Positions 27,776 through 58,191 of a DNA stretch of 64,000 nt are shown here, in pieces. The notes under the pieces are model-generated. The model saw only the letters and a list, made by a program, of their open reading frames with translations. It had not been told where the DNA came from and made no database searches. The position numbers were made by a program, and so were the translations under genes. Within the stretch, counting starts at the first letter, position 1; each line of letters opens with the position of its first letter. The stretch is from Actinophytocola algeriensis (GTDB taxonomy: Bacteria; Actinomycetota; Actinomycetes; Mycobacteriales; Pseudonocardiaceae), in NCBI RefSeq assembly GCF_014203735.1, contig NZ_JACHJQ010000002.1:620001-684000 (forward strand). The letters are read 5' to 3'.

Positions 27776-28120
27776 ATGGCCGACCGTGTACTCCGTGGAA
27801 GCCGACTTGGCGCGGTCAGCTACGAGACAGATCGTAACCACGACCTCGCGCCCCGGCGGACGATCCGCTACGCATGCCCGAAGGACCACGAGTTCGAGGT
27901 GCCCTTCTCCGACGACGCCGAGGTTCCGTCGATGTGGGAGTGCCGTCTGCACGGCACCGCGTCGAAGCTGATCGACGGCACCGAACCGGAGACCAAGAAG
28001 GTCAAGCCCCCGCGCACTCACTGGGACATGCTCCTCGAACGCCGGACCATCCCCGAGCTCGAAGACCTCCTGACCGAGCGACTGCAGGAACTGAAGGTTC
28101 GCCGCAGCCGTTCGGCCTGA
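27776..28120 (+). CDS. rbpA: RNA polymerase-binding protein RbpA
   Basis: The 114-residue protein matches RbpA over its full length: N-terminal MADRVLRGSRLGAVSYETDR, the core IRYACPKDHEFEVPFSDDAE with a second Cys in MWECRLHG, basic linker and the sigma-interacting C-terminal HWDMLLERRTIPELEDLL. RbpA binds the beta subunit and group 1/2 sigma factors and stabilises open complexes, and it lowers rifampicin sensitivity. GAAAGGA sets the ATG at 27776. A SigR-like promoter upstream suggests induction by thiol-oxidative stress. A strong bidirectional hairpin follows. Confidence 0.97.
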   Translation: MADRVLRGSRLGAVSYETDRNHDLAPRRTIRYACPKDHEFEVPFSDDAEVPSMWECRLHGTASKLIDGTEPETKKVKPPRTHWDMLLERRTIPELEDLLTERLQELKVRRSRSA

Positions 28121-30883: not shown

Positions 30884-31633
30884 TCATCGCGAGAACAGCG
30901 ACTTCAGCTGGGTGCCGCGGCGGCGCAGGCCCCACTTGGTGACACGGATCAGCGCCTCGCGGATCACGTCGCTGCTCATCTTCGACACGCCGTGCTCGCG
31001 CTCGGTGAAGGTGATCGGCACCTCGACGACCGTGAAACCCGCCTCGATCGTGCGCCAGCCGAGGTCGATCTGGAAGCAGTAGCCGCGGGACGCGACGTTG
31101 TCGATGCGGATCTTCTGCAGTGCCTCGCGGCGGTAGGCGCGGAAGCCCGCCGTCATGTCCTTCACCCGCGCGCCGAGCGCGATGCGGGCGTAGGTGTTGG
31201 CGCCCCACGACAGCATGTAGCGGTGCTTCGGCCAGTTCACGACCTTGCCGCCGGGCACGTACCGGGAGCCGATCGCGAGGTCGGCGTCCGCCAGCGCGTC
31301 GAGCATGCGCGGCAGGTCCTCCGGCGAGTGCGAGCCGTCGGCGTCCATCTCGACCAGCACGGCGTAGTCGCGTTCCAGGCCCCACTGGAAGCCGGCGACG
31401 TAGGCGGCGCCGAGCCCGTTCTTCTCGGTCCGGTGCATGACGTGCACGTGCCCGTCGGACTCGGCGGAGAGCCGGTCCGCGATCTCACCCGTGCCGTCCG
31501 GGCTGCCGTCGTCGACGATCAGAGCGTGCGCCTTCGGCAGTGCCGCACGCAGCCGGCTCACGATCCGCTCGATGTTGTCCCGCTCGTTGTACGTCGGGAT
31601 CACCACGAGCACCGGCTCGAGCTGCTCCGCCAT
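30884..31633 (-). CDS. ppm1: Polyprenol monophosphomannose synthase (Ppm/Dpm1-like GT2)
   Basis: The 249-residue GT2 glycosyltransferase has [16 protein letters not shown] at the start, [14 protein letters not shown] as nucleotide site and [17 protein letters not shown] with the DxD motif; SRYVPGG and GWRTIEAGF are typical of dolichol/polyprenol phosphate mannose synthases. It moves mannose from GDP-mannose to polyprenyl phosphate for protein O-mannosylation and lipoglycans. There is no membrane domain. The lnt gene lies 58 nt upstream on the same strand. In mycobacteria the two domains are joined in one Ppm1 protein; here they are separate genes. Confidence 0.94.
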
Positions 31634-31691: not shown

Positions 31692-33269
31692 TCAGTTGCT
31701 TGTCCTGGCACGCCGCCGGGCCGCGATCGCCACGCCGACCGCCCCCAGCCCGGCGAGCACCATGATCCATTCCGGGACCGGGCCCAGTTGGTCAGACAGC
31801 GTAGTCGTCGTCCGCAGCGGCACCGTCTCGACCAGCGCGCCGGGCACGAACATGCCGGTCGACTGGCTGACGGACCCGTCCGGCCGGACGAACGCGCTGA
31901 CGCCGCTCGTGGCCGCGACCGCCACGGCACGACCGTGTTCGACGGCACGCACGCGGTCCATGGCGAGTTGCTGGTAGGTCATCTCGGTGTAGCCGAACGT
32001 GGCATTGTTCGTCGGCACCGCGAGCAGGTTCGTGCCCTCGACCGACTCCCGCACCACGCCGTCGAACGCCACCTCGTAACAGGTCGCGAACCCGACGGTG
32101 GCGTCGCCCATCCGGAACGAGACCGCCTTCTCACCCGGCACGAACTGCCCTGCGCGGTCGACCGCCGAGGTGAACAGCCGGAAGAACGACCGCATCGGCA
32201 TGGTCTCGCCGAAGGGCTGCAGCTTCCGCTTCGTGTACTGCTCGATCGGGCCGCGCTGGGGGTCCCACAGCAGGATCGTGTTCCGCGGCAGCCCGTCGTC
32301 GCCGAGAAGCACCGAGCCGACGGCGATCGGCGCCTTGATCGCACGGGCCGCGTCGTCGATGCGGGCCCACGCGTCCGGGTTGCGGTACGGGTCGATGTCG
32401 GACGAGTTCTCCGGCCAGATCACCAGGTCGGGCTGGTCGACCTTGCCTGCGCGCACGTCCTGGGCGAGCTGTTCGGTGCGTGCCACGTGGTTGTCGAGCA
32501 CGGCGCGGCGCTGGGCGTTGAAGTCCAGCCCGGCGCGCGGCACGTTGCCCTGGACGACCGCGACCGTCGCCTCCCCGTCGTTGGCGTCGGTGCCGACCAG
32601 CGGCAGGGCGCCGAACGCGGCGACGACGGGCAGCACGACCGCGAGCGCGGGTGCCACGATCCGGCGCGGCCTGCGGTCCAGGAGCAGGGTGCGCACCAGC
32701 ATCGTCAGCCCGAAGCCGGTCAGGGCGACCGCGAGCCCGATCAGCGGGGTGCCGCCCACGGTGGCGAGCGGGAGGAAGACGCCGTCCGGCTGTGTGAACG
32801 CGATCCGCGCCCACGGGAACCCGCCGAACGGGAAGATCGAGCGCAGGTACTCTCCCGCGACCCACACCAGCGCCGCCCACACCGGCCAGGCACGCAGGAC
32901 GCTCACCACGGAGATGGCGGCACCGGCCAGACCCATGAGGGCCGCCTCCAGGAGTGCCAGCGGCAGCCACGCGACCACGCCGACGAACTCGCCGGTCCAC
33001 GCGAGCAGCGGGACGGTGAAGCCGAGTCCCGCGCACAGCGTGTAGCCGAACCCGGCCCGCGCGCGGGCGCCGTAGATCACCGCACCGAGGATGGCGAACC
33101 CGATCGGGGCGAGCCACCACAGCGTGCGCGGCGGGCCGCTGAAGTAGATCAGGAGGCCCGCGGCGGTCGAGATCACGACACGCAGGAGCACATTTCGCCA
33201 GGCAGGCGTGCGTTCGTCCGTTTTGTCGGACACTGCCGGCTCTTCCGGCGAGACTGCGGGTGCGACCAC
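31692..33269 (-). CDS. lnt: Apolipoprotein N-acyltransferase
   Basis: The 525-residue membrane enzyme has about seven N-terminal helices followed by a nitrilase-fold domain from residue ~235. Catalytic residues by motif are Glu287 (VIWPENSSD), Lys347 (YTKRKLQPFGE) and Cys397 (FATCYEVAF). It adds the third acyl chain to the N-terminal Cys of lipoproteins. GTG at 33269 was chosen because TACCCT lies twelve bases upstream, fitting a leaderless mRNA; the open frame continues to 33329. It forms the first gene of a lnt-ppm operon, whose products interact in mycobacteria. Confidence 0.94.
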   Translation of the reverse strand: MVAPAVSPEEPAVSDKTDERTPAWRNVLLRVVISTAAGLLIYFSGPPRTLWWLAPIGFAILGAVIYGARARAGFGYTLCAGLGFTVPLLAWTGEFVGVVAWLPLALLEAALMGLAGAAISVVSVLRAWPVWAALVWVAGEYLRSIFPFGGFPWARIAFTQPDGVFLPLATVGGTPLIGLAVALTGFGLTMLVRTLLLDRRPRRIVAPALAVVLPVVAAFGALPLVGTDANDGEATVAVVQGNVPRAGLDFNAQRRAVLDNHVARTEQLAQDVRAGKVDQPDLVIWPENSSDIDPYRNPDAWARIDDAARAIKAPIAVGSVLLGDDGLPRNTILLWDPQRGPIEQYTKRKLQPFGETMPMRSFFRLFTSAVDRAGQFVPGEKAVSFRMGDATVGFATCYEVAFDGVVRESVEGTNLLAVPTNNATFGYTEMTYQQLAMDRVRAVEHGRAVAVAATSGVSAFVRPDGSVSQSTGMFVPGALVETVPLRTTTTLSDQLGPVPEWIMVLAGLGAVGVAIAARRRARTSN

Positions 33270-33351
33270 CCGGCAAGGGTACGGCGTCGGATGTTCGCTT
33301 CGTGTTCCAGCCGTCCCGGACCACTGCACCGCGTGATGCCCCCCGTGAAGT

Positions 33352-36937: not shown

Positions 36938-38989
36938 TCAGCTGTCCATGAGCAGCCGCCGCCGGACCACCTTCCCGGTCGCGTTCCTCGGCAGCGCGTT
37001 CACGAAGATCACGTCCCGAGGCACCGCGAACCGCGGCAGGTGCGCGTGCACGTACTCACGCACCGCCGTGGGGCTGATCGCGGCCCCGGGGCGGGGCACG
37101 ACGTACGCGGCGAACCGCTGCCCGAACTCCCGGTCCGGCACCCCGATCACGGCCGCGTCCATGATCTGCGGCAACGTCATCAGCAGCTCCTCGACCGGCC
37201 GGGGGAAGACGTTCTCGCCACCGGAGACGATCATGTCGTCGTCCCGGCCGGACACGAACAGCCGTCCGTCGGCGTCGAGGTAGCCGCGGTCGCCGGTGAC
37301 CATCATGTCGTCGTAGACCGCGTTGCTGCCGCCGCCCGTGTAGCCCTCGAACAGCATGTCGTTGCCGACGCAGATCTGGCCGACGACACCGGGCGGCACT
37401 GGCCGCCCGTCCGGGTCGAGGATGCCGACGCGGGTGCCGACCGGGCAGCGGCCAGCGGTCGTCGGCGCGGCCTTCAGGTCCTCGGGGTCGGCGATGCTCG
37501 CCCACGACACCTCGGTCGAGCCGTACAGGTTGTAGAGCACGTCCCCGAACTCGGCCATGAACCCCGTGACCAGGGACGCGGGCAGCGCCGACCCGCTGGA
37601 CGCGACGACCCGCAGCGAGGACGTGTCGTAGCTGCGGATCACCTGGCGCGGCAGGTCGAGGATGCGCTGCAGCATGATCGGTACCGCGATCAGCGTCGTG
37701 CAGCGCTGTTCCTCGATGGCGGCGAGCGTCGCCTCGGGGTCGAACTTGCGGTGCAGCACCAGCTTCGCGTGCAGCGGCATGCCGAGCTGCATCGCCGCGA
37801 GGCCCCACGTGTGGAACAGCGGCGCCGCCACCATCATCCGCTCGCCTGCCTGGAACGGGATCCGCGACAGCACAGCCGCCGCGGTGCGGATGCCGTGCGG
37901 GTTGCGCCGCCGCGCGCCCTTGGGGTTGCTGGTCGTGCCGGACGTCAGCACGATGATCTTGCCCGCCGACGACGGCGCCTTGATCCGCTCCGGGGACGCG
38001 TCCTCGATGAGCCCGTCGATCGTGAGCTCGCCCTCGTGGCCCCGGCCCCAGGTCAGGATGCGGGGCAGCGACGTGGGGAGGTAGTGCATCAGCGTCATGA
38101 ACTCTTCGTCGACGAGCACGGCCGCCGGCCGGTGCGTCATCACCGTGTCCCGCACCTGGTTCGCCGACAGGCCGGTGTTCAGCAGCAGCACGCTCGCGCC
38201 GAGCTTCCCGCAGGCGACGATCGACTCGACCATGCCCGCGTGGTTGCGGCACATCACCGCGACCCGCCGCCCCTGCCGGACCCCGTACTTCGCCAGCCCG
38301 TTCGCGAGGCGGGTGGTGCGCTGGTCGACCTCGGTGAAGTTGAGCGTGCCGAGCTCGTCGGAGATCGCATCCTCCTTCGGGAACCGCACGCACGCCGCCC
38401 GGTAGCCGCCCGCGACGGTCGCACCCCACTTGGCCAGCACGTTCAGCTGGCGCAGCAACCGGTCCGGGCGGCCGGGCGTGAGCACGCCCGCCTTGGTCAG
38501 GATCCGGGCCGCGGTCAGCTGCGACTGGCTCTTCGCGGCCTGGTCGATCCCCTTGCGCGAAGCGGTGATCGGGATGCCCGCGAGGTGGTGGTGGATGAGC
38601 GTGAACGCGCGCCGGACCCGTTTCCGCAGCCAGGAGCCGGTGACCGAGGTGTCGACGTTCGGCAGTGAGACGGTCAGCTCCACCTCGGTGCGCGCACGGT
38701 CCAGTGCCGCGAACTTCAGCGACACGTGCCCGCCCGGCCACTTGTCGCTGACGATCACCAGGTGCTCGTGCGGCCGGTTGACCAGCACCTCGACCTCGTG
38801 CCGCACCACCGGTCCCTGGTCGACGCTGAACCGCACCTCGTACCGACCCGCCCCGGCCTCGCCGAGGTGCTCGCACCAGGCCACCTCGGCGACGAACTTC
38901 GGGTAGGCCTCGAGATCGGTCAGCAGTGACCAAACTCGGTCGAGCGGGTGGTCGAGGACTTCTGTCACCTCGACGAGATCGGTCGCCAT
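36938..38989 (-). CDS. SRPBCC domain fused to an acyl-CoA synthetase (FadD-like)
   Basis: The protein has 683 residues. Residues 1-150 form an SRPBCC/polyketide-cyclase-like helix-grip domain (VTEVLDHPLDRVWSLLTDLE, VSLKFAALDRARTEVELTVS). From ~190 follows an ANL-superfamily ligase like mycobacterial FadD12: VAVMCRNHAGMVESIVACGK, P-loop LTSGTTSNPKGARR, YGSTEVSW, TGDRGYLDADGRLFVSGRDD and the C-terminal catalytic Lys in NATGKVVRRRLL. The ligase half should make acyl-CoA from a fatty or related acid. ATG at 38989 after GGAGG gives the fused protein; no start separates the halves. The gene follows the lysine cluster on the same strand, 89 nt behind the GNAT gene. Confidence 0.88.
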   Translation of the reverse strand: MATDLVEVTEVLDHPLDRVWSLLTDLEAYPKFVAEVAWCEHLGEAGAGRYEVRFSVDQGPVVRHEVEVLVNRPHEHLVIVSDKWPGGHVSLKFAALDRARTEVELTVSLPNVDTSVTGSWLRKRVRRAFTLIHHHLAGIPITASRKGIDQAAKSQSQLTAARILTKAGVLTPGRPDRLLRQLNVLAKWGATVAGGYRAACVRFPKEDAISDELGTLNFTEVDQRTTRLANGLAKYGVRQGRRVAVMCRNHAGMVESIVACGKLGASVLLLNTGLSANQVRDTVMTHRPAAVLVDEEFMTLMHYLPTSLPRILTWGRGHEGELTIDGLIEDASPERIKAPSSAGKIIVLTSGTTSNPKGARRRNPHGIRTAAAVLSRIPFQAGERMMVAAPLFHTWGLAAMQLGMPLHAKLVLHRKFDPEATLAAIEEQRCTTLIAVPIMLQRILDLPRQVIRSYDTSSLRVVASSGSALPASLVTGFMAEFGDVLYNLYGSTEVSWASIADPEDLKAAPTTAGRCPVGTRVGILDPDGRPVPPGVVGQICVGNDMLFEGYTGGGSNAVYDDMMVTGDRGYLDADGRLFVSGRDDDMIVSGGENVFPRPVEELLMTLPQIMDAAVIGVPDREFGQRFAAYVVPRPGAAISPTAVREYVHAHLPRFAVPRDVIFVNALPRNATGKVVRRRLLMDS

Positions 38990-39078
38990 GCTCCTCCGTC
39001 CGCGGGGCGAACGCCCAGAGCTAGTGTTACTAGCAGCGTGCTCCATTCGGAGCAAGACCCGGTTCCGTGATGTGGACG

Positions 39079-39549
39079 TTATATCGCACGCGACAGCAGT
39101 TCCGTGCTCACCCCGGGATCGCTCTCGAGCGGCTCGCGCCTGCCGGTCGGCTCGAACCCGTGGCGGAGGAACAACTTCCGCGCCGCGTCGTTGCCGTCCG
39201 CGACCCGCAGCACGACCCGGGACCAGCGGTTTTCGCCCGCCCACCGCAACACGTCCGTGATCAACAAGTCGCTGATCCCGAGCCCTCGCGCGGCGGGCCG
39301 CACCCACATGGCGACGAGCATGGGCGTGTCGTCCGGCACGTAGGCGCCGACGAGGCCCACGGTTTCGCCGGCGCGGCGCACGACCGTCCACAGCGCGCCG
39401 CCGTGGAGGCGGCGTCGCCAGTCCGCCTCCTCGAACGCCTCCTCCACCGCGAGCGAGGACCCATAAGCGTACGGGGCGTCGGCGAGCGCGGCCAGGCGGA
39501 CGTCCCGCAACAGCCGCCAGTCGTCGCCGGTCAACCGTATGGTGTCCAT
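39079..39549 (-). CDS. GNAT family N-acetyltransferase, last gene of lysine operon
   Basis: The 156-residue GNAT protein has the acetyl-CoA loop MWVRPAARGLGISDLLI and the motif B region VADGNDAARKLFLRHGFEPT. It starts 13 nt after the end of kal on the same strand, so it is probably cotranscribed. In other organisms beta-lysine is acetylated by AblB; whether this protein has such a role is only a guess, since simple GNATs cannot be assigned by sequence alone. Confidence 0.85.
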   Translation of the reverse strand: MDTIRLTGDDWRLLRDVRLAALADAPYAYGSSLAVEEAFEEADWRRRLHGGALWTVVRRAGETVGLVGAYVPDDTPMLVAMWVRPAARGLGISDLLITDVLRWAGENRWSRVVLRVADGNDAARKLFLRHGFEPTGRREPLESDPGVSTELLSRAI

Positions 39550-39562
39550 GCCAGACGGTAAG

Positions 39563-40030
39563 TCAGGCGACGGGCGATCCGCCTTCCTGTTTCGCGGAGC
39601 TTGCGGAGCGGACCATGGGGGCTGTCGGCGGCACCACGATCGTCGCGGTCGCCTTCGTCGCCACCACCGGCGGGTCCAGCACGTCGGCGGACGACGGACC
39701 GCGTTCCGGCGCGGCCCGGCAGAGCACCTTCGCCTCGAACTCGAGGTCGCGGGAGCGGGTGCCGACGCGGGTCACCGTGGCGGTCACCTCGACCACGTCA
39801 CCGGCCTGGATGGGTGCGAGGAACTCGACGTTCGAGTACCCGGCGAGCAGGCTCTCGTCGCCGTCGGTGTGGATGGCGAGATCGGTCGCCACGTCACCGA
39901 ACATGGCGAGCCCGTAGGCGCCGTCCACCAGGTTGCCGCCGTAGTGCGCGTGCGCGTAGGGCACGTACCTGCGGTGCGTCACCGAAAATCCGACTGCGAG
40001 ACGCTCTGCCTGATGGTTCGCTCCGCTCAC
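39563..40030 (-). CDS. kal: 3-aminobutyryl-CoA ammonia-lyase (hotdog fold)
   Basis: The 155-residue hotdog protein contains HAHYGGNLVDGAYGLAMFGD and AGYSNVEFLAPIQAGDVVEV, as in Kal of lysine fermenters. Kal removes ammonia from L-3-aminobutyryl-CoA to give crotonyl-CoA, the last specific step. GTG at 40030 overlaps the kamE stop (GTGA). Both ends carry pieces of the short dispersed element: the N-terminus reads SGANHQAE, and after the family's natural end (ATIVVPP) a tail TAPMVRSASSAKQEGGSPVA is encoded by the copy at 39594-39616. Without the neighbours it would be called only a MaoC/thioesterase-like protein. Confidence 0.85.
   Translation of the reverse strand: MSGANHQAERLAVGFSVTHRRYVPYAHAHYGGNLVDGAYGLAMFGDVATDLAIHTDGDESLLAGYSNVEFLAPIQAGDVVEVTATVTRVGTRSRDLEFEAKVLCRAAPERGPSSADVLDPPVVATKATATIVVPPTAPMVRSASSAKQEGGSPVA
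39594..39616 (-). repeat. Dispersed element copy in the 3' end of kal
   Basis: On the minus strand this reads ATGGTCCGCTCCGCAAGCTC and CGC, matching the 33-bp unit core at 34871-35002 with one change. It adds the residues MVRSASSA to Kal. Confidence 0.75.
40011..40030 (+). repeat. Short copy of the dispersed element at the kamE/kal junction
   Basis: TGATGGTTCGCTCCGCTCAC is the same as the sequence at the kinase/regulator junction (34982-35010) except that nine bases (CAAGCTCCG) are lacking. In both places the minus-strand GTGA start-stop overlap is part of it. Confidence 0.8.
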
Positions 40031-40767
40031 GCCGCCACTCCCTTGCTCTCCTTCATCGCGTGCACGAGGTAGCTCGCCACCTCGCCGGGCGTCGTGCCGC
40101 GGCCGAAGACCCGGTCCACGCCGAGCTGTCCCGCCATCAACGGGTCGAACCGGGGGCCGCCCGCGATCAGCACTGGGCGCCGGTCGCCCATGGCCTCGCG
40201 GAACGCCGCCGACATCTCCTGGGTGTTCAGGATGTGCGCGTCGCGCTGGGTCACGACCTGCGAGACGAGCACCGCGTCGGCCTTCTCCGCGCGAGCGCGT
40301 TTCACCAGCTCCGGCACGGTGACCTGCGCGCCGAGGTTGACCACCTTCAGCTCGCGGTAGTACTCGAGGCCCTTCTCCCCCGCGAAGCCCTTGATGTTGA
40401 GGATCGCGTCGATGCCGACCGTGTGCGCGTCGGTGCCGATGCAGCCGCCGACCACGACCAGCTTGCGCCGCAACCTCTTCCTGACCTCGCCGTTCACCTC
40501 GGCCGGCGACAGCAGCGGGTACTCGCGCTCGACGACGGTGATCGCGTCGAGGTCGACGAGGTGGCGCACCGAGCCGTAGACCACGAAGAACGTGAAGTCG
40601 GACCCGATGCCGTGCGAGTGCACGACCATCGCGGGTTCGATGCCCATCTTGTTCGCGAGCTGCATGGCCGCGCCCTCGGCCTTGGGGCCGGGTGGCATCG
40701 GCAGTGTGAACGACGTCTGCACCATGCCGTCTCCGGTGGTGTCGCCATACGGGCGTATCGAACTCAT
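40027..40767 (-). CDS. kamE: Lysine 5,6-aminomutase, small (B12-binding) subunit
   Basis: The 246-residue subunit begins with a PLP/dimer region and carries the cobalamin motif D-x-H-x-x-G in CIGTDAHTVGIDAILNIKG: His115 would bind cobalt, and Lys126, eleven residues later, is the counterpart of the clostridial Lys144 that forms the Schiff base with PLP. The C-terminal part (VLVSQVVTQRDAHILNTQEM) completes the Rossmann B12 domain. With KamD it moves the terminal amino group of beta-lysine from C6 to C5 using adenosylcobalamin and PLP. ATG at 40767 overlaps the kamD stop by four bases. Confidence 0.95.
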   Translation of the reverse strand: MSSIRPYGDTTGDGMVQTSFTLPMPPGPKAEGAAMQLANKMGIEPAMVVHSHGIGSDFTFFVVYGSVRHLVDLDAITVVEREYPLLSPAEVNGEVRKRLRRKLVVVGGCIGTDAHTVGIDAILNIKGFAGEKGLEYYRELKVVNLGAQVTVPELVKRARAEKADAVLVSQVVTQRDAHILNTQEMSAAFREAMGDRRPVLIAGGPRFDPLMAGQLGVDRVFGRGTTPGEVASYLVHAMKESKGVAA

Positions 40768-42341
40768 TTCGTCTCCCCCGACTCCAGCAGGTCGGCGGCC
40801 GGGTTGCGGTAGCCGTCCGCCTTCTCGACCACGCCGTCGGCGCCCTTCCCCTTGTCCGGCGGGCGTTTCATCAGCCCGAACGTACCGTCGGCGATGGCGT
40901 TCAGCAGCCCGTCGCGGACGATCCGGTCGAGCAGGTCGACCGCCTCGCCGAGCACCTGGTGGGCGCGTTTGACGATGAACCCGCCGGGCGCTGGGTGGAA
41001 GTCCTCGCGCAGGCCCGCTGCCGCGTCGAGCACGTACCGCACGTTCTGCAGCGCCAGGTCGCGGTCGGACAGGAACGGCGTCACCACGGCCTCGGTCATC
41101 ATGCCGACCAGCAGGATCGACTGTCCGGTGAGGACGCCCGCGAGGTTGAAGAACCCGTCGAGCAGGTAGCCGTTGAACACGTCGCCCGTCATGTGCTTCG
41201 TGGGCGGCATCCACTTCAGCGGCGCGTCGGGGAACAGCTCCCGCGCCAGCAGCGCGTGCGCCAGCTCGAGGCGGAACGACTCGGGGACCTTCGGGTTGAT
41301 CTCGAAGGCGTGGCCGAGCCCGAGCAGCTCGTCCGGCAGGCCCGCCTCGTGCGCGAAGTGCTCGTTGAGCAGCTGCGACACGGTCACCGTGTGCGCGGCG
41401 TCGACGGCGTCGGCGGTGGTGAGGTAGTTGTCCTCGCCGGTGTTGATGATGATGCCCGCGCGGGCGTGGACCTGGCGGGAGAACCGCTGGTCGACGAACG
41501 TGCGGATCGGGTTGATGTCGCGGAACAGGATGCCGTACATCGAGTCGTTGAGCATCATGTCGAGGCGCTGCAGGCCGCCGAGCACGGCGATCTCCGGCAT
41601 GCACAGGCCCGACGCGTAGTTCGTGACGCGGATGTAGCGGCCGACCTCCTTGGACACGTCGTCCATGGCGGCACGCATGATCCGGAAGTTCTCCTGCGTG
41701 GCGTAGGTGCCGGCGAACCCGTGGTGCGTGGCGCCTTCCGGCACGTAGTCCAGGAGGGACTGACCGGTGGAGCGGATGACCGCGATGATGTCCGCGCCCG
41801 CGCGGGCGGCGTTCGCGGCCTGCACGACGTCCTCGTCGATGTCGCCGGTCGCGACGATGAGGTAGATCCACGGCCGCCGGGGCGGATCGCCGAACCTCGT
41901 GATGAGCCGGTCGCGCTGGGCGCGATTGCGGTCGACCGTGCGGAGACCCTTGGCCACCGCGACGCGGCCGGCCTTGGCGGCGCGCTCGGCGTCGCGGCCC
42001 GCCGGGACGCGGTACTGGATCTGGCCGGCGGCGGTCGCCTCGGCCAGGTCCGTGAGCGAGCCGAGGTCGTGCTCGCGGAGCGCGTGGAAGGCGGGCAGGA
42101 CGACACCGTGCTCTAGGCCGCAGTGCTCGCGGACGGTGTCGACGACGCGGTTGACCCACGGCACGTCACCGGCTCTGTGGGTGGTGTCGGCACCCGTGAT
42201 GCCCGCGAGCCGCAGGGTCGCCCGTTCGACGGCGACCGTCGTGTGCGCGGTGGCGATACGCACGACTGGTTCCGCCGCTCGCGCGGCCAGCTCGCGCGCG
42301 GTCGCGACGACGTCGGGATCCAGGTCCAGCAAGGGCATCAT
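40764..42341 (-). CDS. kamD: Lysine 5,6-aminomutase, large subunit
   Basis: The 525-residue TIM-barrel subunit matches KamD along its length, including YLIVATGDIDEDVVQAANAA, IRSTGQSLLDYVPEGATHHG, RVTNYASGLCMPEIAVLGGL and GIIINTGEDNYLTTADAVDA. It provides the substrate and PLP pocket of the beta-lysine 5,6-aminomutase. ATG at 42341 overlaps the amidohydrolase stop and the gene's end overlaps kamE, both by four bases. The enzyme converts beta-lysine to L-erythro-3,5-diaminohexanoate; the clostridial enzyme also works on D-lysine. Confidence 0.96.
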   Translation of the reverse strand: MMPLLDLDPDVVATARELAARAAEPVVRIATAHTTVAVERATLRLAGITGADTTHRAGDVPWVNRVVDTVREHCGLEHGVVLPAFHALREHDLGSLTDLAEATAAGQIQYRVPAGRDAERAAKAGRVAVAKGLRTVDRNRAQRDRLITRFGDPPRRPWIYLIVATGDIDEDVVQAANAARAGADIIAVIRSTGQSLLDYVPEGATHHGFAGTYATQENFRIMRAAMDDVSKEVGRYIRVTNYASGLCMPEIAVLGGLQRLDMMLNDSMYGILFRDINPIRTFVDQRFSRQVHARAGIIINTGEDNYLTTADAVDAAHTVTVSQLLNEHFAHEAGLPDELLGLGHAFEINPKVPESFRLELAHALLARELFPDAPLKWMPPTKHMTGDVFNGYLLDGFFNLAGVLTGQSILLVGMMTEAVVTPFLSDRDLALQNVRYVLDAAAGLREDFHPAPGGFIVKRAHQVLGEAVDLLDRIVRDGLLNAIADGTFGLMKRPPDKGKGADGVVEKADGYRNPAADLLESGETK

Positions 42342-43798
42342 CGAACCTCGTGAATCGTGATTCCATCATGGACAGTGCGAAGACAGCGCGGTGACGTGCG
42401 CGGGTCGCCGTCCCAGACGGCGAAGGTGGCGCGCGCGCCGACCTCGAGACGGCCGCCGGACATGCCCGCGGCGCGCCAGCCGCCCTCGGTGTGGGCGGCG
42501 AACGCCTGCTCCCAGGTCAGCCCCGAGCCCGGGGTTCGGTGCTCGACGGCGGCGCGGACGGTGGCCCACGGGTCGACCGCGGTGACCGGGGCGTCCGAGC
42601 CGAGCGCGAGGGTCACCCCGCGGGCGGCGAGTGTCGCGAACGGGTTCAGCGCGGCGGCGCGGTCCCCGAGCCGCTGCGCGTACATGCCGTCCCGGCCGCC
42701 CCAGTACGCGTCGAACAGCGGCTGCACCGACCCGAGCACACCGAGCCGGGCCAGCTCGTCGATCTGCTCGCCGGTGACCATCTCCAGGTGTTCCAGGCGA
42801 TGGCCCGCCGCGACGATGGCCCGCTCCCCCACGACCTTCTCGGCGAGCCGGAAACCGGCCACCACCTCGGCCACGGCCGCGTCGCCGATCACGTGGAAAC
42901 CGGCCTGGCGGCCGGTTTCCGTGCACGCGACGACGTGGTCGGCGATCTGCCGCGCGCTCAGGTAGCGGGCGCCGCTCGTGTGCGGGGCGTCGGTGTACGG
43001 CTCGCACAGCGCCGCCGTGCGGGAGCCGAAGGCGCCGTCGACGAACAGGTCGCCGGCCTGTCCCCGGACACCGGGCACGGACTCGCCGAGCGCACCCCAG
43101 TAGCCAACCACCTGTGGCAGGTCACCTGGCCTGGCAAGGAGATCCGCGAGGTCGTCGGCACCCGAGATGTCCGGTCCCGCGCACTCGTGCACGCACGCGA
43201 TGCCCATCGACGCGGCGTGGCGGAGGAACGCCAGCTGCGCCGCCTCCCGCTGTGCCGGGGTGATCGACTCGCGGGCCGCGCGGCGCACGTGGTGGTGCGA
43301 GTCCTGGGCGAGCGGGCCGTCGGCCGACCAGCCCGCCGCCGTCCGCGCTCCTGGCACGAGGTCGACGAGCGCCGTCGACGCCAGCGCCGAGTGCACGTCG
43401 ATGCGGGAGAGGTACACGGGTGTGCCGTCCGCCACCGCGTCCAGTTCGGCGCGGGTGGGCGGCCGGTTCTCCGGCCAGCGGGTCTCGTCCCAGCCGTGCC
43501 CCCACAGCAGTACGTCCTGCTCGACCCGGTCGCGGACCGCGTCGAGCAGGTCGGACAAGGACTCCGTCGCGGTCAGGTCGAGGCCGGTGTGCAGCAGGCC
43601 GGCGGAGGTGGCGTGCACGTGCGCGTCCACGAACGCGGGCGTGACGTACGCGCCACCCAGGTCGACCGTGTCGGCGACCGGGCCCCGGTGGTCCGTGCCG
43701 AGCCAGGTCACCTGACCCGCGTCGACGGCCATGGCGGTCGCGGTGGTCGCGCCCGGCGCGTCACCGTGGATCCGCGCGTTCGTGTACAGGGTCGTCAT
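42338..43798 (-). CDS. Amidohydrolase family 3 (YtcJ-like) protein inside the lysine operon
   Basis: The 486-residue metal-dependent hydrolase shows YVTPAFVDAHVHATSAGL with the HxH pair, GFHVIGDAAVAEV, RLEHLEMV and ALGSDAPVTAVDPWATV with the last Asp, as in amidohydrolase_3/YtcJ proteins. It lies between kdd and kamD with four-base overlaps on both sides, so it must be made together with the pathway. No amidohydrolase step exists in the known clostridial pathway. It may act on an acylated or cyclised form of an intermediate (for example a lactam); this is inference. ATG at 43798 was set by overlap and family start. Confidence 0.9.
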   Translation of the reverse strand: MTTLYTNARIHGDAPGATTATAMAVDAGQVTWLGTDHRGPVADTVDLGGAYVTPAFVDAHVHATSAGLLHTGLDLTATESLSDLLDAVRDRVEQDVLLWGHGWDETRWPENRPPTRAELDAVADGTPVYLSRIDVHSALASTALVDLVPGARTAAGWSADGPLAQDSHHHVRRAARESITPAQREAAQLAFLRHAASMGIACVHECAGPDISGADDLADLLARPGDLPQVVGYWGALGESVPGVRGQAGDLFVDGAFGSRTAALCEPYTDAPHTSGARYLSARQIADHVVACTETGRQAGFHVIGDAAVAEVVAGFRLAEKVVGERAIVAAGHRLEHLEMVTGEQIDELARLGVLGSVQPLFDAYWGGRDGMYAQRLGDRAAALNPFATLAARGVTLALGSDAPVTAVDPWATVRAAVEHRTPGSGLTWEQAFAAHTEGGWRAAGMSGGRLEVGARATFAVWDGDPRTSPRCLRTVHDGITIHEVR

Positions 43799-44832
43799 GT
43801 CGAAGCAGTGTGCCGTTCCCTGCGCTCGAACAGCTCGCGCACACCTGGCGTTTCGCGGAACAGGTCGAGCGCGAACGTCGCGTGACCGGGGACGAACCCG
43901 TTGCCGATGAGCATGCGGACGTCCGCGGCCAGGCCTTCGGCGCCGAGCGCGGCGGCCGAGAACGAGGTGGCCATCGAGAAGAACACGATCGTGCCGCCGT
44001 CCGCGGTGGCCAGCACCGCACCGTGCTCGCAGCCCGGCACGTCGACGCACACGATCGTCACGTCGACCCGTTCGCCGACCGCATCGGCCACGGCCAGCGG
44101 GTTCCGCGCGTCGGCGACCACGATCTCGTCGGCGAGCCCGGCCCCGCGCACCGCGTCGGCCTCGTCCTCGGTCGGCACGAGCGCGACCAGTCGCCCGGCC
44201 CCCGCCTTGCGGGCCGCCGCCAGCGACAGGCTGCCCGACTTCCCGCCACCGCCGAGTACCAGTACGGATGACCCGGAACCGGCCTCGCGCACGACGCGGT
44301 CGGTCAGCGCGGGCGCGCCGCACACGTCGAGGACCGACAGCGACAGCTCGTCCGGCAGGTCCGGCGGCAGCACCGCCGCGATGGACCGCCCGAACAGGAC
44401 CGCCGTCCCCCGGCAGGGCACCTGCTCGCTCTCGCCCGACCAGCCGGCGAGGCCGTCGACGCCACCGTCGATCCGCAGCGGCGTGAGCGTCAGCGACACG
44501 AGCGTCGCGATCCGGTCGCCTGGCTTGAGACCGAGCGGCGACTCGGGGCCGACCTCGCGGACCGTCCCGAGCAGCATCCCGCCGGAACCGGTCACGGGGT
44601 TGTGCATCTTCCCGCGCTGCTCGATGATCCCCGCCACCGCGCCACGCACGGCGTCCGGAGTCCCGTGCTCCTCACGCAGCTGGCGGTAGGAGGCCGCGTC
44701 CAGGTTCAGGCGCTCGACGTCCACCAGGACTTCATCCGGCCACGACCCTGGCGCAGGTGACAGTCGCCACGCTTGCTGTGGCAGGACCCCTTCCGGCTCG
44801 ATCACCCGGTGTAGCCCGTATGGAGAAGACAC
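43795..44832 (-). CDS. kdd: L-erythro-3,5-diaminohexanoate dehydrogenase
   Basis: The 345-residue protein resembles Kdd of lysine-fermenting bacteria: an N-terminal zinc-free alcohol-dehydrogenase-like fold, the NAD-binding loop VLVLGGGGKSGSLSLAAARK and VTIVCVDVPGCEHGAVLATA then GGTIVFFSMATSFSAAALGA. It oxidatively deaminates 3,5-diaminohexanoate to 3-keto-5-aminohexanoate with NAD. GTG at 44832 (VSSPYGLHRVIEPEG) follows GGAGG; an upstream ATG at 44880 would add 16 poor residues. It is the first gene of the five-gene overlapping operon and is divergent from kamA. Confidence 0.92.
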   Translation of the reverse strand: MSSPYGLHRVIEPEGVLPQQAWRLSPAPGSWPDEVLVDVERLNLDAASYRQLREEHGTPDAVRGAVAGIIEQRGKMHNPVTGSGGMLLGTVREVGPESPLGLKPGDRIATLVSLTLTPLRIDGGVDGLAGWSGESEQVPCRGTAVLFGRSIAAVLPPDLPDELSLSVLDVCGAPALTDRVVREAGSGSSVLVLGGGGKSGSLSLAAARKAGAGRLVALVPTEDEADAVRGAGLADEIVVADARNPLAVADAVGERVDVTIVCVDVPGCEHGAVLATADGGTIVFFSMATSFSAAALGAEGLAADVRMLIGNGFVPGHATFALDLFRETPGVRELFERRERHTAST

Positions 44833-44913
44833 ACGACCTCCTTCCGTAGGATTTGCGTCTGTACTACGTTCTGGCAGCATATCTTTACGTCAACCTAGCG
44901 ACCAGGAGGACGG

Positions 44914-46320
44914 ATGACGGCGCTTCATGAGACGGTCACCGCCGCCACGACGGTCTCCGACGCAGTGGAAGAGACCGCGCGGCAACCGTACGAGTACGTC
45001 AGAAGAGAGCTGGTCGAGCCGGACTGGCGCCGGTTCCCGGGGTGGAGTCACATCACGGACGCCCAGTGGCGGGACGCACAGTGGCAGCGGGTGCACTGTG
45101 TGAAGAACATCAAGCAGCTACGCGCCGTGATGGGCGATCTGCTCGCCGAGTCGTTCTACGACGACCTCGTGGCGGACCAGGAGCGGCTGGCGACGATGTC
45201 GATGCTGCTGCCGCCGCAGATGCTGAACACGATGGCGCCGACGGCGACCGGTGGCGACATCACCAAGGAGTTCCTGGCGGATCCGGTACGCCGGTACATG
45301 ATGCCGGTCGCGAGCGACCGCGACCCGGTGTGGCCGAACCACCCGCACTCGTCGCGCGACTCGCTGCACGAGGCGGAGATGTGGGTCGTCGAGGGATTGA
45401 CCCACCGCTATCCGACCAAGGTGCTGGCCGAGCTGCTGTCGACCTGCCCCCAGTACTGCGGGCACTGCACGCGGATGGACCTGGTCGGCAACTCGACCCC
45501 GTCGGTGGACAAGCACAAGCTGTCGCTCAAGCCGGTCGACCGCCAGGACCAGATGATCGACTACCTGAAGAAGACCCCCGGCGTCCGGGACGTGGTGGTC
45601 TCCGGCGGCGACGTGGCGAACGTCCCGTGGCACCAGCTCGAGTCGTTCCTCATGCGGCTGCTCGACATCGAGACCGTGCGGGACATCCGGCTCGCCACCA
45701 AGGCGCTGGCCGGCCTGCCGCAGCACTGGCTGCAGCCCAAGGTCGTTGAGGGCCTGGAGCGGGTCGCGCGCACCGCGCACCGGCGCGGCGTCAACCTGGC
45801 GATACACACGCACGTGAACCACGCGCAGTCGGTGACCCCGCTGGTCGCGGAGGCCGCCCGCACGGCGCTGGACGTGGGGGTGCGCGACGTCCGCAACCAG
45901 GGCGTGCTGATGCGGGGCGTCAACGCGACCCCGGACGATCTGCTGGACCTGTGCTTCGCGCTGCAGGGCGAGGCGAACATCCTGCCGTACTACTTCTACA
46001 TGTGCGACATGATCCCGAACGCCGAGCACTGGCGGGTCGCCGTGTGGGAGGCACAGGCGCTGCAGCACGCGATCATGGGTTACCTGCCCGGCTACGCGAC
46101 CCCGCGCATCATCTGCGACGTGCCGTACGTCGGGAAGCGCTGGGTGCACCAGCTGGCGGAGTACGACCGCGAGCACGGCATCTCGTACTGGACGAAGAAC
46201 TACCGCACGGGCATCGAGCACGCCGACGCCGACGCCCTGTCGCGGCACTACCCGTACTACGACCCGATCAGCACGCTGCCCGAGGCCGGTCAGCAGTGGT
46301 GGCGTGACTCGGGAGAGTAG
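44914..46320 (+). CDS. kamA: Lysine 2,3-aminomutase (radical SAM)
   Basis: The 468-residue radical SAM enzyme has Cys178, Cys182 and Cys185 in STCPQYCGHCTR. Asp365 (FYMCDMI) and Asp402 (IICDVPY) match the two Asp that hold the side-chain amino group of lysine in the clostridial enzyme, and Lys408 in VPYVGKRW is the likely PLP lysine. The usual GGGGK loop is replaced by PYVGK, and the tail (YWTKNYRTGIEHADADA) differs as well, so this is a divergent branch. It converts L-lysine to L-beta-lysine. AGGAGGA precedes the ATG at 44914. It shares an 81-nt divergent promoter region with kdd. Confidence 0.94.
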   Translation: MTALHETVTAATTVSDAVEETARQPYEYVRRELVEPDWRRFPGWSHITDAQWRDAQWQRVHCVKNIKQLRAVMGDLLAESFYDDLVADQERLATMSMLLPPQMLNTMAPTATGGDITKEFLADPVRRYMMPVASDRDPVWPNHPHSSRDSLHEAEMWVVEGLTHRYPTKVLAELLSTCPQYCGHCTRMDLVGNSTPSVDKHKLSLKPVDRQDQMIDYLKKTPGVRDVVVSGGDVANVPWHQLESFLMRLLDIETVRDIRLATKALAGLPQHWLQPKVVEGLERVARTAHRRGVNLAIHTHVNHAQSVTPLVAEAARTALDVGVRDVRNQGVLMRGVNATPDDLLDLCFALQGEANILPYYFYMCDMIPNAEHWRVAVWEAQALQHAIMGYLPGYATPRIICDVPYVGKRWVHQLAEYDREHGISYWTKNYRTGIEHADADALSRHYPYYDPISTLPEAGQQWWRDSGE

Positions 46321-57735: not shown

Positions 57736-58191
57736 TCAGAGCGCGGGCGACCGGCCTTCGTACGGGGTCGAGAGCACGACCGTGGTCCGGGTGGACACCT
57801 TCGCCGCCTCGCGGATCTGCCGCAGCAGGTCCTCGAGCGCGGCCGGGGAGGCCACCCGGACCAGCAGGATGTACGACTCGTCGCCCGCCACCGAGTAGCA
57901 CGCCTCGATCTCGCGGATGTGCTCCAGCCGGTGCGGGTAGTCGTCCGGCGCGGCGGGGTCGATCGGGGTCAGCGAGATGAACGCGGTCAGCGACAGGCCG
58001 ATGACCTCGCCGTTGAGCTGCGCGTGGTACCCGCGGATCACCCCGCGCTGCTCGAGCCGCCGCACCCGCTGGTGCACGGCGGACACGGACAGCCCGACCC
58101 GCTCCGCCAGGTCCGTGAAGCTGCACCGGCCGTCGTCGGCCAGCTCACGCGCGATCGCCTGGTCGATCGGCTCCAGCTCGGACGCGGTCAT
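57736..58191 (-). CDS. Lrp/AsnC family regulator
   Basis: The 151-residue protein has the AsnC HTH (CSFTDLAERVGLSVSAVHQRVRRLEQ split at 20) and the RAM ligand domain (ACYSVAGDESYILLVRVASP). It senses amino acids as an octamer or dimer. ATG at 58191 overlaps the stop of the M24 peptidase gene (ATGA), so the two are coupled. This suggests control of peptide or proline metabolism. Confidence 0.92.
   Translation of the reverse strand: MTASELEPIDQAIARELADDGRCSFTDLAERVGLSVSAVHQRVRRLEQRGVIRGYHAQLNGEVIGLSLTAFISLTPIDPAAPDDYPHRLEHIREIEACYSVAGDESYILLVRVASPAALEDLLRQIREAAKVSTRTTVVLSTPYEGRSPAL

Follow-up and report, generated by a model that had tools for sequence, protein, structure and literature searches.

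Does the group of lysine-degradation genes in Actinophytocola algeriensis make up a complete pathway, when the gene for the enzyme that cleaves 3-keto-5-aminohexanoate (kce) is missing from its surroundings and an amidohydrolase gene is placed between two of its members? The question arises from a stretch of 64,000 nucleotides (positions 620001-684000 of contig C2, hereafter the window) in which a first-pass annotation, made from the letters alone, had recognized kamA, kdd, kamD, kamE and kal of the Barker pathway. This pathway from L-lysine to crotonyl-CoA and acetoacetate is usually treated as an anaerobic amino-acid fermentation, and the lifestyle of the host, a soil actinomycete, is aerobic. 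Judging from sequence comparisons, we consider it probable that the cluster encodes an actinobacterial form of the Barker pathway which is complete, but split over two loci. The amidohydrolase is a constant companion of the kamD loci that were read, but no marker of a changed route.

Gene content and order of the cluster

The genes in question, with the evidence for each, are the following.

44914-46320, plus strand: kamA, a lysine 2,3-aminomutase-like enzyme of the radical S-adenosylmethionine (SAM) and pyridoxal phosphate (PLP) type, actinobacterial subfamily (Cys178/182/185, Arg187, Asp365, Asp402, Lys408)
43795-44832, minus strand: kdd, L-erythro-3,5-diaminohexanoate dehydrogenase (NF052381 over cut-off)
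42338-43798, minus strand: amidohydrolase of the Amidohydro_3 family, from an orthologous group marked by Asp250 (Pfam, alignments, structure model)
40764-42341, minus strand: kamD, lysine 5,6-aminomutase subunit (NCBIfam over cut-off, solved relatives)
40027-40767, minus strand: kamE, lysine 5,6-aminomutase subunit (NCBIfam over cut-off, alignment to solved relatives)
39563-40030, minus strand: kal, 3-aminobutyryl-CoA ammonia lyase (NF052388 over cut-off)
39079-39549, minus strand: generic GNAT acetyltransferase, not conserved with the cluster (NCBIfam, family loci)

The open reading frames (ORFs) and their translations agree with the annotated layout, where kdd, the amidohydrolase gene, kamD, kamE and kal form a minus-strand run (44832-39563) in which neighbouring genes overlap by four bases at all four junctions, kamA is divergent from this run, and the GNAT gene follows kal after 13 nt. 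Four of the products exceed the curated cut-offs of their NCBIfam models, namely Kdd (247.8 bits, cut-off 200), KamD (685.9 bits, cut-off 600), KamE (343.1 bits, cut-off 280) and Kal (182.4 bits, cut-off 160), which bears out the reading of a lysine-degradation cluster in an actinomycete. KamD and KamE are identified as a lysine 5,6-aminomutase by the models NF052384 and NF052385 and by the solved relatives 8t0v, 9q1a and 1xrs, and the His115/Lys126 motif of KamE, found where the annotation had placed it, lies inside the alignment to the solved enzymes.

KamA, whose Cys178/182/185 were likewise found as annotated, gave no Pfam match at E 0.001. It aligns to the lysine 2,3-aminomutase 2a5h across residues 39-407 only (E 6.6e-41), sharing its CxxxCxxC motif. 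The KamA residues matched to Arg134, Asp293, Asp330 and Lys337 of 2a5h, which we take to be the lysine and PLP binders, are conserved in 103/103 ORFs (a set where loci overlap and some genomes are counted twice); Lys408 stands just past the end of the alignment and was equated with Lys337 by motif. Both the radical SAM cysteines and the lysine/PLP residues of the 2,3-aminomutase mechanism are present in every one of these ORFs. The PYVGK loop, to which the annotation had drawn attention, is indeed present, but not as an oddity of the strain: it is fixed in the KamA subfamily, reading DVPYVGK in 86 and DVPFVGK in 17 of the 103 ORFs, and is one residue shorter than its counterpart in 2a5h, presumably DAPGGGGK. 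The closest named KamA loci (90-91%) are those of A. oryzae, an Actinophytocola metagenome-assembled genome, A. gossypii and A. xanthii. A second kamA-like copy was seen at L199:20050 (74% identity), at L221:18964 (78%) and in several further genomes.

Since the simple gene caller proved unreliable, missing genes and calling ORFs on the wrong strand, gene orders were read by tblastn instead. Among 297 genomes of the host's family 101 carry kamD, and the kamD loci of 33 of these were read. In all 33, from 18 genera, the amidohydrolase gene precedes kamD; kdd precedes the amidohydrolase gene in 32 (the remaining one, L052, is truncated by a contig end), and kamA lies within the stretch at 29 (not in L052, L060, L061 and L062). 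A set of 80 named KamA loci, some of which are truncated by the end of a contig or place kamA at a distance above 10 kb, contains 37 loci with all six genes, and order and strands are identical in 37/37, an agreement that is more than chance. The others hold kamA and the amidohydrolase gene (32), kamA only (5), kamA and kdd (3), kamA, kdd and the amidohydrolase gene (2), or all genes but kal (1). Outside the family we read 13 of the 14 genomes with kamD over the cut-off, the fourteenth being a 3.4 kb contig that was left out. In 11 of these 13 loci the amidohydrolase gene stands before kamD, L153 showing a gap of 1.5 kb and L154 only a partial match; it adjoins kdd in 10 of 13, and L155 and L163 deviate.

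In the proposed route KamA would convert L-lysine to L-beta-lysine, a shift of the terminal amino group by KamDE would yield 3,5-diaminohexanoate, and Kdd would oxidize this to 3-keto-5-aminohexanoate. The product of the kce gene on the other contig would then use acetyl-CoA to cleave this keto compound into acetoacetate and 3-aminobutyryl-CoA, from which Kal would remove ammonia to form crotonyl-CoA. The chemistry of these steps is established for the Barker pathway. Homologues of KamA, KamD, KamE, Kdd, Kce and Kal are all in the genome, as in the fermentation pathway of Fusobacterium and Cloacamonas according to the accessible portions of PMC3149608. The differences are the actinomycete host, the separate locus of kce, the amidohydrolase gene between kdd and kamD, and the divergent KamA subfamily. 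With the Kat variant of Cloacamonas, as given in the same portions of PMC3149608, the first four steps are shared, but there a transaminase takes the place of Kal, whereas here Kal is matched over its cut-off. The known parts make the cluster a variant of a known pathway, and extend an anaerobic-type pathway to a sizeable group of actinomycetes, where kce has a locus of its own. A split actinomycete route was not described in the titles and abstract openings searched, a search that covered the subscription literature thinly and does not show that the route is unpublished.

A kce orthologue on a separate contig

As the first-pass annotation had stated, no kce lies inside the window; a search of the whole genome for BKACE (PF05853), which the annotation had proposed, found a single gene, on contig C3. 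Among NCBIfam models it scores highest with Lys_ferment_KCE (NF052387), and among solved structures with 2y7d, which is named Kce (201.9 bits, the next at 132.7). Close orthologues of the C3 gene (77-100% identity) are found in 101 of the 297 family genomes, and 100 genomes have both kamD and kce, one has kamD only (G110), one has kce only (G293), and 195 have neither (Fisher p 8e-78, a value that ignores relatedness). The contig of G293 stops inside the amidohydrolase gene right after kdd (L182), and its missing kamD is thus an assembly break. Of the two alternatives in the annotation, a kce gene elsewhere in the genome is supported by these counts, and an amidohydrolase marking a changed route is not supported, given the motif-intact kce orthologue and the distribution of the amidohydrolase described below.

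The TGAE, HxH and MED motifs of kce are intact at 9/9 kamD-positive loci read. Eight more genomes carry a BKACE of 56-65% identity, all with kamA and all without kamD, and were not scored as having a kce orthologue. At the kce site of the five kamD-negative loci read from these eight (L283, L311, L312, L313 and L314) the three motifs are partly or wholly gone in 5/5; HxH is retained in L283, and for L313, where the alignment begins at residue 63, its loss was taken from the gene start. We read this diverged BKACE as a putatively decayed or re-purposed kce. The C3 gene is linked to the kam cluster by this shared position together with motif loss in none but the kamD-negative loci among those read. 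Some markers around kce are ORFs that overlap the lyase, YgfZ and kce genes on the opposite strand (lyase and YgfZ being named from translations), and in L274 such an ORF masks kce in the neighbourhood view, although the gene is visible in the motif alignment.

The amidohydrolase as a companion gene

The amidohydrolase matches Pfam Amidohydro_3 (PF07969) with 266.9 bits against a cut-off of 29.7, and no specific NCBIfam model was over its cut-off. His60, His62, His302, His337 and Asp402 are conserved, and a metal site in the enzyme is therefore likely, in which Asp250 may bridge the metals. Asp250 occupies the lysine position of the KxFxDG motif, where the paralogue L285 and the solved relatives 3icj and 3igh carry Lys. 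The Asp is found in the aligned orthologues with the exception of L271 (Glu) and L154 (not aligned), L286 gave no row, and L155 has Lys like the paralogue. The loci from another class (f10) share the Asp and were for this reason treated as part of one orthologous group. The predicted structure (mean predicted local distance difference test score 88.1, residues 255-277 mostly below 50) is nearest to 3igh and 3icj in Foldseek (template modelling score 0.75-0.78), followed by general amidohydrolases. These two Pyrococcus metal-dependent hydrolases are closest in both sequence and fold, but are themselves uncharacterised, and no function was gained from the Foldseek comparison. A relative at L271:3981-5411 has Ser for His302 and Ala for Asp402 and is possibly inactive or misaligned. 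Most orthologues span about 40 more alignment columns than the window enzyme, apparently an insert towards the C-terminal side that the latter does not have.

The first-pass annotation had named an amidohydrolase confined to this strain as a finding that would remove the pathway reading. Instead, the gene is present in 259 of the 297 family genomes at E 1e-90, of which 159 are without kamD, and it is for this reason that we do not regard it as the mark of a changed route. A sample of 103 genomes from the class, only a minority of which were searched for kamD, gave 58 with the gene at E 1e-45. Loci were read from 20 of the 159 kamD-negative genomes and, for the 57 other class genomes in which the amidohydrolase occurs, from 10. 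Genes of the lnt, DPMS or rbpA type follow the amidohydrolase gene in 14 of the 20 family loci. Among the 10 class loci, two have kam genes, and the eight without a kam gene in the stretch all have lnt- or DPMS-type genes by the amidohydrolase gene (8/8). The trio of lnt-, DPMS- and rbpA-like genes is also found downstream of the cluster in the window.

In a tree of the amidohydrolase, kamD-negative rows fall inside groups of kamD-positive ones and at least six changes are forced by well-supported branches, as would be expected if kam genes had been lost repeatedly while the amidohydrolase gene stayed. The tree was made without the window copy (L284), L154, L160, L271, L285 and L286. A row labelled kamAonly has kamA in the genome (in L144-L146 not beside the amidohydrolase gene), and a row labelled none has no kam gene in the stretch read, the genome of L135 (G160) having kamA elsewhere. 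Collectively, these data suggest that the amidohydrolase is probably an ancient neighbour with a general amide- or lactam-hydrolysing role that the pathway reactions do not require, and that it perhaps supplies or rescues lysine-type compounds.

KamA without KamD and the competing explanations

The gene kamA is present in 195 of the 297 family genomes, which comprise 100 of the 101 with kamD and 95 of the 196 without (the assembly break G293 among the 95); the sole kamD-positive genome that lacks it, G285, is a draft of about 650 contigs. Of the 95 kamA-positive kamD-negative genomes 20 neighbourhoods were read, and in 17 of these kamA is divergent from and adjoins the amidohydrolase gene, the exceptions being L169 (amidohydrolase about 13 kb off), L173 (none within 10 kb) and L182 (contig break). 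The amidohydrolase occurs in 187 of the 195 kamA-positive genomes, while the other eight have listed completeness values of 74-92%, and G016 and G293, both among the eight, hold a fragment of the gene at a contig end. Taken together, the presence counts come near to a nested pattern, kamD within kamA within amidohydrolase. A search of four genomes with kamA but no kamD, run without a positive control, gave no Kdd, and Kal turned up in one of the four. Kal-like genes (59-60% identity) lie near the amidohydrolase gene on the opposite strand at L144:8441-8812 and L145:12647-13042, both in genomes without kamD, and the Kal match in G026 crosses one TGA. For two Amycolatopsis strains the accessible part of PMC5859366 notes a lysine 2,3-aminomutase and the absence of the cadaverine route. 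Why 95 of 297 genomes, one of them an assembly break, keep KamA without KamD, mostly beside the amidohydrolase in the 20 loci read, is a question raised by these data; the gene may be either a remnant or a sign of a second use of beta-lysine.

Several observations count against a complete pathway split over two loci with a merely accessory amidohydrolase. KamA falls below every NCBIfam cut-off, the best score being 158.3 bits against 525.4 for TIGR03820, and the C3 gene misses the equivalog cut-off of NF052387 (274.9 bits against 382). In G110 (L020), listed as 100% complete, kamD and kamA are present and a close kce was not found, the only such case among 101, and eight exceptions arise if the genomes with the 56-65% identical BKACE are counted as kce-positive. 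The presence of the amidohydrolase at 33/33 family kamD loci is as compatible with an obligatory role as with an accessory one, and its tree does not separate loss of kam genes from transfer. That the enzyme is a working part of the route, for example by opening a six-membered lactam to which 5-amino-3-oxohexanoate or 3,5-diaminohexanoate might close, or by freeing lysine from an N-acyl or amide precursor, we consider rather unlikely. Its place before kamD at 33 of 33 loci inside and 11 of 13 outside the family, the Asp signature shared with the f10 loci and its presence in nearly all kamA-positive genomes speak for such a role; against it stand the 72 of 297 family genomes that have the amidohydrolase without kamA, the kamDE loci L155 and L163 of the phylum, where this type of amidohydrolase is not found before kamD, and the absence of the word amidohydrolase from the accessible main text (cluster figure aside) of PMC3149608, in which Perret et al. 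deal with the anaerobic clusters.

It is also conceivable, although rather doubtful, that KamA and the Asp-type amidohydrolase make up a self-contained unit of two genes which either predates the degradation route or does not depend on it. The hydrolase of this unit would free or rescue a lysine- or beta-lysine-containing amide and KamA would interconvert lysine and beta-lysine for an undescribed use; the lineages with kamDE, kdd, kal and kce would then have tapped this unit for catabolism. Quite improbable, in our view, is a cluster that makes or processes beta-lysine for another purpose, such as a compatible solute or a natural product, instead of breaking lysine down. The many kamD-negative genomes with kamA and the GNAT gene after kal in the window strain would suit such a purpose, but kdd, kamDE, kal and a co-occurring kce would make little sense for synthesis, and the GNAT gene is present at only 2 of 33 family kamD loci, with RimI as its best NCBIfam model (37.6 bits against a cut-off of 86.4). 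The same rarity rules out the GNAT gene as a member of the unit. Finally, an alteration at the kce step, with the amidohydrolase or another enzyme consuming 3-keto-5-aminohexanoate, would account for a window without kce and for G110, but it is highly improbable given a close kce orthologue in 100 of the 101 kamD-positive genomes and its intact motifs at the nine loci read, which also led us to reject the amidohydrolase as a substitute for Kce.

Surrounding genes

Apart from the cluster itself, four genes of the window, all with approximate coordinates and named by sequence reading, recur beside related loci.

31734-33305, minus strand: lnt-like gene, conserved neighbour (tblastn)
30893-31633, minus strand: DPMS/ppm1-like gene, conserved neighbour (tblastn)
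27776-28117, plus strand: rbpA-like gene, conserved neighbour (tblastn)
57739-58188, minus strand: Lrp/AsnC-type regulator, about 11 kb from kamA

A gene of the Lrp/AsnC type adjoins kamA, in divergent orientation, in 6 of the 7 f10 loci and in L152. Past the cluster, a minus-strand ORF at 36938-39391 reads as a fusion of an SRPBCC domain with an acyl-CoA-synthetase-like part, and belongs to a group of nine called genes, that of the window included.

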